Part shown: positions 20,496 to 25,792 of the stretch, in pieces
Layout: each line of letters opens with the position of its first letter
Numbering within the stretch: position 1 is the stretch's first letter
NCBI RefSeq assembly: GCF_002157505.1
Contig: NZ_NFSC01000031.1
Coordinates: 62,001 to 126,000 of the forward strand
DNA length: 64,000 nucleotides
DNA from: Arthrobacter agilis
GTDB taxonomy: Bacteria; Actinomycetota; Actinomycetes; Actinomycetales; Micrococcaceae
Direction: 5' to 3'
Notes under the pieces: model-generated
Databases searched by the model: none
Told to the model about the DNA's origin: nothing
The model's input: the letters and a program-made list of their open reading frames with translations, nothing else
Translations under genes and position numbers: made by a program

Positions 20496-21413
20496 TCAGG
20501 ACCTGTCGGACGTGACGGGCTGGTCGGCGGTGACCGTCACGGCGACCACGCCGAGGCCCGCGTGCGCAGCGAGGACCGAGGGACAGGGAGCCAGGGACAC
20601 CCGTCCCGTCCCTGCCACCGCCTCGAGGCGCTCGGCCAGGCCGCGAGCCTCGTCCTCGTTGCCGAAGTGGTGCACGGTCAGCAGGACGCCGCCCGTCCGG
20701 GCCGCGACGTCGGCCTCCACCAGTTCCTGGAGCCGCGCCATCGCCCGCGGCGCCGACCGCATGCGTTCGAGGGGTACCAGCCGCCCGCCCTGCACATGGA
20801 GGATCACCCGGACGGACAGGAGCGTGCCCAACCAGCCCGCGGCTGCGGTGACCCTGCCGCCACGCCGCAGCTGCTCGACGCTCGGCACGTAGAAGTAGAG
20901 CGCGGAGGCACGTGCCGCCATCGCCGCAGCGGCCGCAGCTGCCTGCAGGTCGGCACCCGTCCGGGCGGCAGCGAGGGCGGCGAGGGCCGCACGGCCCTGC
21001 GCCATGCCCGTCGTCCTCGTGTCGATCACCTCGACCGGGATCGTCGCCCGTGATGCCGCCAGTCGTGCTGCTTCGACGGTCCCGGACAGCAGCCCCGACA
21101 GGTGGAGGGACACGACGCCGTCGTAGCCTTCCTCCGCGAGGCGGCCGTACACCCTGTCGAACTGGCCCGGCGATGGACGGGATGTGCGCACGTCCGATCC
21201 CGCTGCGAGGGCCACCATCAGCGGACCGGTGACGTCGTCGTGCTCACCCGTCAGGATGTCGGAACCCACGAGGACCGGCATCGCGACGACCTGCACGTCC
21301 TCGGCCGGACCGCCGGGCGCCATCCAGTCGGGCGGGAAGCCTGCGGCCGAATCGGTGACGACGGCTACCCGTACGGCGTCTCCGTGCGCCGGCGTCGCCG
21401 GTCCCGGCTCCAT
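20496..21413 (-). CDS. DegV-family fatty-acid-binding protein
   Basis: A protein of 305 residues from ATG 21413, which overlaps the leuS stop by one base (TGATG); the longer in-frame extension reads through leuS. VAVVTDSAAGFP near residue 15, RTSRPSPGQF, YDGVVSLHLSGLLSGTVEAA and VEVIDTRTTGMAQG are the DegV lipid-binding motifs. Members bind a fatty acid, and the FakB branch presents it to the kinase FakA. No fakA is in view. Translational coupling to leuS is likely. Confidence 0.9.
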   Translation of the reverse strand: MEPGPATPAHGDAVRVAVVTDSAAGFPPDWMAPGGPAEDVQVVAMPVLVGSDILTGEHDDVTGPLMVALAAGSDVRTSRPSPGQFDRVYGRLAEEGYDGVVSLHLSGLLSGTVEAARLAASRATIPVEVIDTRTTGMAQGRAALAALAAARTGADLQAAAAAAAMAARASALYFYVPSVEQLRRGGRVTAAAGWLGTLLSVRVILHVQGGRLVPLERMRSAPRAMARLQELVEADVAARTGGVLLTVHHFGNEDEARGLAERLEAVAGTGRVSLAPCPSVLAAHAGLGVVAVTVTADQPVTSDRS

Positions 21414-23911
21414 CAGGCCGGGACGATGTTGACCAGTTTGGGCGCGCGCACGATCACCGTGCGGATCCCCCGGCCGTCCAGGACGCGCTGCACCTGCTCG
21501 CTGGCGAGGGCGAGCTCGCGCAGGTCGTGCTCGGCGATGTCCGGGGATACCGTCAGCCGGTCCCGCACCTTGCCCTGCACCTGGACCACGGCCACGACGC
21601 TCTCCTGCGTCAGCAGCCCGGCGTCCACCGCGGGCCAGCCCGCCGTCGCCACTGTCGCGTCGTGTCCGAGGCGGTTCCACAGGTCCTCTGCCGTGTAGGG
21701 CGCGAAGAGGCTGAGGATGATGGCGACCGCCTCGGCCGCTTCGCGCACCGCGGGATCCGCGCCGCCCGCGCCGGAGTCGATCGCCTTCCTCGTCGCATTG
21801 ACGAGTTCCATGAGCTTCGCGATGACGACGTTGAACTTGTTGGCCTCCATCAGCTCCGCGGCCTCGGCCACGGTCCGGTGCGTCACCGAGCGCAGTGCCC
21901 GGTCACCCGCCGACGTGTCGGCTCCGACCTCGCTGGTGACGTCGCCACCGAGCCGCCAGGCGCGCGCCAGGAACTTCGCCGAGCCTGACGGCGAGACATC
22001 CGCCCAGTCGACGTCGTCCTCCGGCGGGGACGCGAACACCATGGTGAGGCGCACGGCATCGACGCCGAAGCGGTCGAGCTGCTCGCCGAGGTCCACGCCG
22101 TTGCCGAGGGACTTGCTCATGGCCTTGCCACCGTTGAGCACCTGGCCCTGGTTGAGCAGCGCGCTGAAGGGCTCGGTGAAGTTGACCATGCCGAGGTCGA
22201 ACAGCACCTTGGTGAAGAACCTGCTGTACAGCAGGTGCAGGATGGCGTGCTCGACGCCGCCCACGTACTGGCCGACGGGCAGCCAGCGGTTCACGGCCTC
22301 GGTGTCGAACGGGGCGGTGTCCAGCTGCGGGTTGACGAAGCGCAGGTAGTACCAGGACGAGTCCACGAACGTGTCCATGGTGTCGGTGTCGCGGAGTGCG
22401 GCACCGCCGCACTGCGGGCACGCCACGTTGACCCACTCCTCGACGGCGGCCAACGGGGACGTCCCCTTCGGCGCGAGGGCCTCGCCGCGCAGGCCCTCGG
22501 GCAGCGTGACCGGCAGCTGGTCGTCCGGAACCGCGACCTCCCCGCACGCGGGGCAGTGGATGATCGGGATGGGCGTGCCCCAGAAACGCTGCCGCGAGAG
22601 CAGCCAGTCCCTCAGGCGGTAGTTGATCGTGTGCTCACCCGTCCCCTGCTCCTCGATCAGCTCGATCGCACGGCGGATGGCCTCGGCCTTGTCCAGGCCG
22701 GTCAGCTCGCCCGAATTGACCAGGGTCCCCTCGCCCGTCGTCGCGATCCCGGTCCCGGCAGCATCCTCCGCCCCCGTGTCGACGACGGTGCGGACGGGCA
22801 GGTCGAAGGCGCGGGCGAAGTCGAGGTCGCGCTGGTCGTGCGCGGGGACCGCCATGATCGCACCGGTGCCATAGTCGGCCAGGACGTAGTCGGCGGCCCA
22901 GACGGGCAGTTTCTCGCCGTTGAGCGGGTTGACGGCGTAGCGGCCGGTGAAGACTCCTGTCTTCTCACGCTCCGTCGCCTGGCGCTCGATCTCCGACAGT
23001 CCCTTGACCTGCTCCCGGTACTGCTCCAGGTCCGCCCGCCGGTCCGGCGTGACAAGGTCCAGCGCCAGGTCGGCGTCCGCGGCCACGACGAAGAACGTCG
23101 CCCCGTACAGCGTGTCCGGCCGGGTCGTGAAGACGGTGACGTCGCTCGCCGGCAGATCGCCGTCGGCCTCGATCCGGAACCGCACGTGCGCGCCCTCGGA
23201 ACGGCCGATCCAGTTGCGCTGCATGGCGAGCACGCGCTCGGGCCAGTGGCCTTTCAGCTGCTCCATGTCGTCCAGCAGGCGGTCCGCGTAGTCCGTGATC
23301 TTGAAGTACCACTGGTTCAGGTTCTTCTTCGTGACCATCGTCCCGCAGCGGTCGCAGGCTCCGTTGATGACCTGCTCGTTCGCCAGCACGGTCTGGTCCT
23401 TGGGGCACCAGTTCACGGGCGAGTTGCGGCGGTAGGCCAGGCCCTTCTGGAAGAACCGCACGAAGAGCCACTGTGTCCAGCGGTAGTACTCGGGGTCGGA
23501 GGTGTGCAGCCGGCGGCTCCAGTCGGCGCTGATCGCGTAGCGCCTGAACGAGTTCGCCTGGGTCTCGATGTTCGCGTAGGTCCACTCGGCGGGATGGGCG
23601 TTGCGCTTGATGGCCGCATTCTCGGCGGGGAGCCCGAAGGAGTCCCAGCCGATCGGGTGCAGGACGTCGTAGCCCTTCTGGCGGTAGAAACGCGCTGCGA
23701 CGTCGCCCATGGCGAATGCCTCCGCGTGGCCCATGTGCAGGTCGCCGGAGGGGTAGGGGAACATGTCGAGCACGTAGCGGCGCTCGCGCTCGCCGTCGTC
23801 GGCCGGTGCGAACGCCTGGAGCCGGTCCCAGACCTCAGGCCACTTCGCCTCGATGGCGGAGAAGTCGTAGGTGTTCTCGTCCGGCTGAGCGCCCTCGGGA
23901 TTGATGCTCAC
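21413..23911 (-). CDS. leuS: Leucyl-tRNA synthetase
   Basis: A protein of 832 residues from GTG 23911 (MSINPEGAQ); an in-frame extension further upstream runs through the leader and has no similarity. A class I HIGH-type motif (DLHMGH, about 56), an editing domain insertion (with TTRPDTL, about 240) and MSKSLGNG (about 600) are visible. A zinc-type C-x2-C region, [10 protein letters not shown] and CPQCGGAAL, is also present. The upstream leader looks like a leucine attenuator. degV is coupled downstream. Confidence 0.97.
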
Positions 23912-24024
23912 TGTATGTTGACCTGTCCTGTCGGTGGAACGTCGTCCTGCTCGATGCTTCTTGTCTGATGCGCTGCCGCGAACCCGCGCCCAGGCGCCTC
24001 CGGGGTGTCCTGCGCCGGACACAC

Positions 24025-24074
24025 AAAAGCCCCTCACACACAGGAGGGGCCGCCGCACGGTGAGTACCGTGCGG
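24025..24074 (-). promoter_or_regulatory. leuS transcription attenuator (hairpin plus intrinsic terminator)
   Basis: In the direction of leuS transcription there is a perfect 9-bp hairpin (24066-24074 with 24053-24061, loop of four), starting right after the leader stop codon. Two bases later comes a 7-bp GC stem (24044-24050 with 24029-24035, loop of eight) followed by UUUU (24028-24025), an intrinsic terminator about 115 bases before the leuS start. Leader-peptide attenuators before leuS have been predicted in some Streptomyces. I could not derive a clear alternative antiterminator pairing by eye. Confidence 0.65.
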
Positions 24075-24101
24075 CTAGGTAAGGAGGAGGGCGCGGAGCA
24101 T
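24075..24101 (-). CDS. Putative leucine-rich leader peptide of leuS (MLRALLLT)
   Basis: A reading frame of eight codons, ATG CTC CGC GCC CTC CTC CTT ACC, then TAG, holds four leucines. A -10-like TAAAGT lies exactly six bases before the ATG, the spacing seen for leaderless transcripts in actinobacteria, so a ribosome site is not needed. The stop codon directly abuts the first hairpin of the attenuator. Four leucine codons of eight before leuS is unlikely by chance, but expression is not shown. Confidence 0.6.
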
Positions 24102-24149
24102 GCGTTCACTTTAGCAGTGCCCGCAGCCCGGTGCCGGATGCAGCTGCCA

Positions 24150-24191
24150 GGGTCATGCCCGGCCCGCCCTGCGGCGGACCGGGCATGACCC
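24150..24191. terminator. Hairpin between glpK end and leuS promoter
   Basis: A 13-bp stem (24150-24162 with 24179-24191) encloses a second 5-bp stem (24164-24168 with 24173-24177). It starts 15 bases after the glpK stop, with no U tract. It probably ends the glp transcript. Confidence 0.7.
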
Positions 24192-24205
24192 CGTGGAGGG
24201 GGGAG

Positions 24206-25723
<1,518 letters not shown>

Positions 25724-25792
25724 GTCGTACTCCTTCATTGGATGGACGTCGTTGATCGGCGGCTGCGCACAGCCGCCCGGTCGTGCTGGTGC

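Follow-up and report, generated by a model that had tools for sequence, protein, structure and literature searches.

A compact leader element lies directly upstream of leuS on the minus strand of the 64,000-nucleotide stretch of Arthrobacter agilis DNA analysed here (the window), and we suggest, with a probability of about 0.6, that it serves as a transcription attenuator of leuS, controlled by the ribosome and responsive to leucine, in which a folded hairpin (H1) hinders the terminator hairpin (T) that abuts it. An earlier note on this DNA had proposed a leucine leader-peptide attenuator at this site, and the conservation of the leucine leader, the promoter spacing and the terminator supports that interpretation. 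The element is of a kind already known before leuS in Streptomyces, where leucine attenuators were predicted for S. avermitilis and S. coelicolor in 2005 (PMC1262725) and where the LeuL2 leader upstream of leuS was mapped in S. lividans TK24 in 2021 (PMC8079986).

The gene itself, encoding leucine--tRNA ligase (21413-23911, minus strand, GTG start at 23911), was identified by TIGR00396 (966 bits, cut-off 548). The leader frame at 24101-24075 on the same strand reads ATG CTC CGC GCC CTC CTC CTT ACC TAG and encodes MLRALLLT*, with leucine at codons 2, 5, 6 and 7 (CUC, CUC, CUC, CUU). This is the eight-codon frame with four leucines already pointed out before leuS, and its codon run is for the amino acid of the downstream gene. 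The -10 box TAAAGT (24113-24108), likewise seen earlier, is preceded by TGC, as in an extended -10, and ends six nucleotides before the ATG, which is the predicted 5' end of the RNA. H1 (24075-24052), delimited by fold, covariation and geometry, is proposed to act as both antiterminator and pause hairpin. It begins with the G of the stop codon TAG, five nucleotides past the last leucine codon (CUU, 24083-24081). The contact between stop codon and hairpin had been described correctly; the stem, given then as 9 bp, measures 10 bp with this G included. T follows with a gap of 0 nt, its stem GGCCCCUCC..GAGGGGCU opening at 24051 and its short U-run (UUUU) occupying 24028-24025; the terminator noted earlier ahead of leuS was recovered at 24051-24025 by both the fold and the terminator scan. 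Within the terminator loop a UG at 24042-24041 takes a pause-like position, 10-11 nt past the base of H1.

From the ATG to the last U the module is 77 nt long. The 108-nt leader folds with a z of -3.0, an equally good fold being found in one of 200 dinucleotide shuffles, and the terminator scan returned three terminator-like sites in 701 bases, where 0.3 would be expected by chance, two of the three being the T hairpin. An intrinsic terminator is thus present by sequence between the leader ORF and leuS, and its stem is conserved and covarying. The traits of the LeuL2 type, namely a position directly upstream of leuS, a Leu-rich ORF and a hairpin with a U-run, were all found in the window. The Rfam scan, which covered T-box and other leader families, gave no match at gathering in the window or in 10 related loci, and all weaker matches fell far under their gathering scores.

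Comparison with relatives proved informative. The LeuS of the window was used to retrieve named relatives, of which the best 80 of 585 confirmed were taken, and a covariance model, R1, was built from the sequences of 31 relatives; it begins at the ATG and so excludes the promoter. R1 matched the leuS upstream region of 56 of the 80 relatives and of the window (E up to 0.1; L044 only at E 0.03), the 31 building sequences matching by construction, and at the same threshold gave no match elsewhere in the 717,745 bases searched. The element was seen upstream of leuS in Arthrobacter, Paenarthrobacter, Pseudarthrobacter, Sinomonas and Zafaria, and also in Nocardioides, Kribbella, Planobispora, Actinomadura and some Propionibacteriaceae. 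The 24 relatives without an R1 match include Kocuria, Rothia, Micrococcus, Nesterenkonia, Yaniella and other Propionibacteriaceae, as well as L048, where the 39 bases upstream are too few to judge. Four loci from Glutamicibacter and close relatives (L036, L037, L038 and L041) carry a diverged leuS leader that R1 missed, with a single, very rare CUA codon (for example MNPKRNLA*) and the same promoter spacing and two hairpins. In whole-genome searches R1 matched 160 of 394 species and 68 of 137 genera of the class, and 79 of 149 genomes and 18 of 32 genera of the family. The family matches include the A. agilis genome and seven other listed genomes of its genus, and no member of the genus was among the 20 unmatched family genomes listed (of 70). 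A weak second match in the A. agilis genome (E 0.06), considered as a possible second copy of the leuS element, proved to be an ilvB leader (TIGR00118); a third match had only E 6.6. Judged from sequence, this conservation places the leuS element far beyond chance; the short frame and the stems, whose fate in relatives the earlier note had singled out as decisive, are both kept.

The counts that follow draw on a wider sample. At least 150 class matches were listed, the A. agilis match included, and 111 of these were fetched; those left unfetched belong mostly to families with many similar-scoring matches (f26, f27 and f24). The genes after the 111 fetched matches are leuS in 99, cimA in seven and ilvB in four (the latter two by tblastn), with a contig edge in one (L145). 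The 99 leuS matches, the 56 loci and the window, minus one duplicate, make 155 distinct leuS elements. Start codons were counted in 150 of these, five having no start codon at model position 1, and 153 could be split into H1 and T, with two left out.

In 148 of the 150 elements a TAnnnT box stands 6 nt (118) or 7 nt (30) before the leader start, at a background rate of 0.0014 per position. The six-base spacing reported for the window is thereby a conserved one. Only L018 and L185 are without the box, and in L018 the model start is misplaced, its GTG having TAGAGT six nucleotides before it. Because the box keeps this distance of 6-7 nt, the leader of the window is very probably leaderless, as read from promoter spacing. 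The S. lividans leuS leader, MRAVRLLLSEPR, is leaderless by its mapped transcript start (PMC8079986), and exactly this peptide is encoded in eight of the 111 fetched matches. Leader ORFs of the leuS elements have 8 codons in 62 cases and 11-12 codons in 67, and contain two to five leucine codons in 147 of 150 and one in the other three. The last leucine codon is CTT in 136 of 150. CTT makes up 197 of the 435 leucine codons of these leaders and 3.4% of the 3855 leucine codons in 56 leuS genes, and it is these counts that mark the CUU of the window as a conserved sensor codon.

The arrangement of the two hairpins is equally constrained. H1 starts 4-5 nt past the last leucine codon in 144 of 153 elements, and H1 is separated from T by 0 nt in 105, 1 nt in 37, 2 nt in 10 and 3 nt in one, in minimum-energy folds that extend helices where possible and so shorten the gaps slightly. 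Despite this fixed gap the hairpins vary in length, H1 from 19 to 68 nt and T from 15 to 38 nt. Alignment of relatives, which had been suggested earlier as a check, revealed conserved leucine codons and covariation in both stems, with 39 double-change cells against 8.6 in shuffles (31 sequences). In 59 representatives the native arms also paired better than swapped arms (z -17.9 for H1 and -11.6 for T), with the caution that relatedness inflates all z values of the swap test.

The following sequence of events is proposed. Transcription would begin at or next to the leader ATG, as the spacing of the -10 box suggests, and a 70S ribosome would start at the extreme 5' end of the RNA. When charged tRNA-Leu is sufficient the ribosome would reach the stop codon and cover the 5' arm of H1; H1 being prevented, T would fold and transcription would end. 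When tRNA-Leu is uncharged the ribosome would wait at the leucine run, whose conserved and rare codon is CUU, leaving H1 free to fold. Lying 0-1 nt from T, a folded H1 may then hinder the closing of T in the exit channel of RNA polymerase, allowing read-through into leuS: the base of T has to close beside the RNA:DNA hybrid, and a duplex fixed 0-1 nt ahead of that base would be forced into the channel as well. A hairpin-stabilised pause at H1 would, in addition, give the ribosome time to load. We infer three parts of this scheme: the direction of regulation, the blocking of T by the abutting H1, and the role of H1 as a pause hairpin. H1 should oppose T because starvation must raise leuS and H1 folds under starvation, and contact is the likely cause since H1 and T share no paired bases. 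Coaxial stacking of the two hairpins could even favour T.

The effect of ribosome position on the hairpins was modelled by masking the RNA up to the front edge of the ribosome and truncating it before the 3' strand of the terminator. Median pairing of H1 was 0.96 with the ribosome at the first leucine codon, 0.48 at the last and 0.00 at the stop codon, so that a ribosome waiting at the last leucine codon leaves H1 half formed. H1 toggled between the first leucine codon and the stop in 150, 145, 129 and 55 of 153 elements at front edges of +9, +12, +15 and +18, and its switching would therefore depend on the ribosome not reaching too far, given that only 55 respond at +18.

The same model bears on whether a stalled ribosome exposes a hidden antiterminator of the trp type, formed by the 3' arm of H1, or by the leader, with the 5' strand of T. 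Pairing of this kind is the accepted mechanism of leader-peptide attenuators, and antiterminator hairpins, which may correspond to H1, are among the features reported for the leuS of two Streptomyces (PMC1262725). In the positive controls, E. coli trpL and leuL (NC_000913), the terminator 5' strand was held at 0.62 and 0.67 when the ribosome stalled and at 0.01 at the stop, at +12. The controls have their limits, leuL giving 0.37 at the stop for +9, and the values at the last regulatory codon falling to 0.38 (trpL) and 0.45 (leuL) for +18. Among the 153 leuS elements classical sequestration of the terminator 5' strand was found in none at +9 and +12 and in three at +15 and +18. The medians for this strand were 0.13 at the first leucine codon, 0.34 at the last and 0.37 at the stop, which is if anything the reverse of the classical order. 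The native H1 3' arm also paired with the T 5' strand more weakly than swapped arms did (z +3.3 on 59 and +2.7 on 116 representatives). Pairing of the H1 5' arm with the T 3' strand gave z -1.9 (p 0.03) on the 116 and -0.4 on the 59. No other pair of segments approached H1 and T in strength, and besides these only the pairing of the leader with the post-terminator stretch was clearly better than swapped. On these tests the idea that the leader pairs with H1 or T to form a hidden antiterminator was rejected. As modelled, then, there is no sign of a classical base-paired antiterminator in the leuS elements, and we regard the trp-type explanation as improbable. The earlier remark that antiterminator pairing is not obvious here was borne out across 153 elements with trpL and leuL working as controls. 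Comparison of equilibrium terminator probability between stalled and stop positions was dropped as a test when the E. coli trp control proved unresponsive, and was replaced by the truncated RNA on which both controls work. Competition between H1 and T was not seen in equilibrium folding, so that blocking of T by H1 is without base-pairing support.

A different reading of H1 is that it serves only as a pause hairpin, for ribosome loading and catch-up, with T alone deciding the outcome and read-through depending on contact between ribosome and polymerase or on Rho. A UG lies 10-12 nt past H1 in 115 of 152 elements (one of the 153 had no anchor) against 35 +/- 5 in shuffled sequences, a count that related sequences inflate. 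This distance is the spacing of hairpin-stabilised pauses such as that of his, and a leaderless ORF does need time for a ribosome to load. The UG might, however, serve the terminator loop, and a pause alone leaves unexplained both the contact of H1 with T (0-2 nt in 152 of 153) and the fixed 4-5 nt between the last leucine codon and H1. We consider a pure pause role rather unlikely, though less so than the trp-type pairing. Obstruction of T by H1, the reading preferred here, may include such a pause.

Downstream of T a candidate anti-leader was recognised at 24001-23984 (minus strand), in which GGAGG (24001-23997) is complementary to the leader CCUCC (24087-24083) and GGGCGCGG (23991-23984) to the leader CCGCGCCC (24096-24089). 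This helix is contained in the minimum-energy fold of the window, where the gapped duplex has z -2.3 and the best ungapped stretch p 0.21, and it can form only in read-through RNA. Across elements, leader pairing in the 0-60 nt after T had a mean z of -0.68 +/- 0.16, compared with -0.11, -0.16 and -0.03 in three control regions; in a fine scan, from which two of the 59 representatives were missing, it was strongest in the first 30 nt (-0.73 +/- 0.16). Native leader and post-terminator stretches paired better than swapped ones, with z -4.5 for the 27 leader cores of Micrococcaceae (+0.3 in the control region) and z -4.1 for the 87 cores of other families (-2.3 in the control region); the corresponding swap tests on representatives gave z -3.8 and -4.7, and -1.3 with 16 representatives. 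In full leaders of Micrococcaceae the leucine core paired with the post-T stretch at 0.71, compared with 0.62 in shuffles, and exceeded the shuffled value in 35 of 43. The leuS start region was rejected as a pairing partner of the leader, the mean z being 0.04 (-30 to 0) and 0.06 (-15 to +15), with -0.25 +/- 0.17 (0 to +30) and -0.42 +/- 0.22 (-45 to -15) in flanking windows (five of 153 leuS starts were unplaced). The evidence for leader:anti-leader pairing behind T is suggestive only.

Such pairing could mean that the leucine run acts after read-through, in translational or stability control of the leuS mRNA, much as in the LEU element of leuA, whose Leu codons are described as pairing with the leuA Shine-Dalgarno box (Seliverstov 2005, PMC1262725). 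The better pairing of native duplexes in both family sets is in keeping with this. Against it, z falls to -1.3 on the 16 diverse representatives, no more than 12 of 43 Micrococcaceae sequences reach significance singly and that of the window (p 0.21) does not, the other families give a negative z in the control region too, the signal lies 0-30 nt after T and away from the leuS start, and a role of this kind cannot account for the terminator. We therefore think it very improbable as the main function of the element, and return to attenuation through H1 and T.

The nearest precedent for H1 opposing T, by analogy, is the ilvBNC attenuator of Corynebacterium glutamicum. Its antiterminator hairpin adjoins the terminator, and the two are proposed to compete by way of a GCC trinucleotide alone; mutating the region that they share increases expression seven- to eight-fold (PMC11857589). 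As described there, this 'fast attenuator' resembles the window element in a leader start next to the transcript 5' end, as predicted for the window, in CUU among its regulatory codons and in an antiterminator hairpin immediately before the terminator. It differs in that its antiterminator and terminator share the GCC, whereas H1 and T of the window adjoin each other with no paired bases in common. Nor was an overlap of the ilvBNC type found in the 153 minimum-energy folds, where the two hairpins are distinct and 0-3 nt apart; a transient overlap is possible. For the ilvB1NC leader of Mycobacterium tuberculosis the proposal is that the antiterminator cannot form while a ribosome occupies the stop codon (PMC13236596). 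That leader shares with the window an amino-acid-sensing uORF and an intrinsic terminator before the gene, and is unlike it in serving a branched-chain biosynthesis gene, in its 166 nt and in the mutually exclusive antiterminator and terminator folds given in the account. Mycobacterial poly-cysteine uORFs (Canestrari 2020) are, as predicted for the leader of the window, leaderless, amino-acid-sensing uORFs of an actinobacterium, but are cited as translation attenuation and sense another amino acid. The Streptomyces leuS leaders, as reported, agree with the window in the gene, the short Leu-rich ORF, very probably leaderless in the window too, the hairpin and the U-run; the stop codon of the window (8 codons, UAG) is at the foot of H1, whereas in elements encoding the MRAVRLLLSEPR peptide it falls inside H1. 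E. coli trpL and leuL have regulatory codons, a response to ribosome position and an intrinsic terminator in common with the window, and differ from it in their base-paired antiterminator. They are also led by Shine-Dalgarno sequences. In the E. coli trp fold the 1:2 hairpin and the terminator are 22 nt apart, compared with 0 nt for H1 and T of the window.

The literature searched, which took in few subscription journals, gave no account of the distribution of the leuS element, the fixed geometry of CUU, 5 nt, H1 and T, the missing paired antiterminator or a version before cimA. If it is true that a folded hairpin vetoes an abutting terminator without shared bases, searches built on competing pairs would miss such attenuators, in a phylum rich in leaderless transcripts; in S. 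lividans they make up 17% of transcripts (PMC8079986). The element would also explain how leuS can respond to a shortage of leucine in loci for which the Rfam scan gave no T-box.

The sample further contained leaders with isoleucine codons and the same two adjoining hairpins before cimA (citramalate synthase, of the isoleucine route; L204, L209, L213, L214, L219, L221 and L222). The last isoleucine codon before the stop is AUU in six of the seven (for example MQHRHIVIP*), and the cimA leader is likely to be an isoleucine attenuator, of which no description was found in the same, mainly non-subscription, literature. In the four ilvB leaders, with valine and leucine codons, the run ends with GUU in three and CUU in one. 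Pieces of three cimA and one ilvB product (232-233 residues) had TIGR00977 and acetolactate synthase models as their best NCBIfam matches, with scores under the full-length cut-offs, as expected for pieces. Since a TAnnnT box lies 5-8 nt before the start codon in only one of seven cimA and one of four ilvB leaders, these are less clearly leaderless. The sensed amino acid thus shifts with the gene, leucine for leuS, isoleucine for cimA and valine or leucine for ilvB. A wider and more tentative proposal, which we would not yet favour over its negation, is that actinobacterial attenuators of this form do without competing base pairs: the ribosome on a leaderless ORF of 8-12 codons would set H1, H1 would block T sterically, the module would be reused with other sensor codons (CUU for leuS, AUU for cimA, GUU or CUU for ilvB), and the anti-leader behind T would then close the leader in full-length mRNA. 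As the module is compact, exchanges its sensor codons between genes and was matched in 160 of the 394 class genomes sampled, the question can be put directly to experiment in harmless soil bacteria.

The ilvB leader of A. agilis itself, MQPEPVVVVLTQRVA* (L083), lies outside the window at C25:318894-319007 and is followed by a gene matching TIGR00118 (586 bits, cut-off 538). Its geometry is CUU, 5 nt, H1, 1 nt and T, and in the masking model it too was without the classical antiterminator pattern. By eye, a -10-like GAAACT is placed six nucleotides before its ATG.

In the window, glpK (24206-25738) is situated upstream of the leuS element. The possibility that T terminates glpK was ruled out by the strong hairpin that glpK has of its own (24195-24146), beyond its end at 24206, and by the promoter box between glpK and T. 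This inverted repeat at 24146-24195, just past glpK, is strong and has no clear U-run. The leuS frame is open across the entire leader, from 23911 to 24109 (ORF 21413-24109), which is probably an effect of high G+C.
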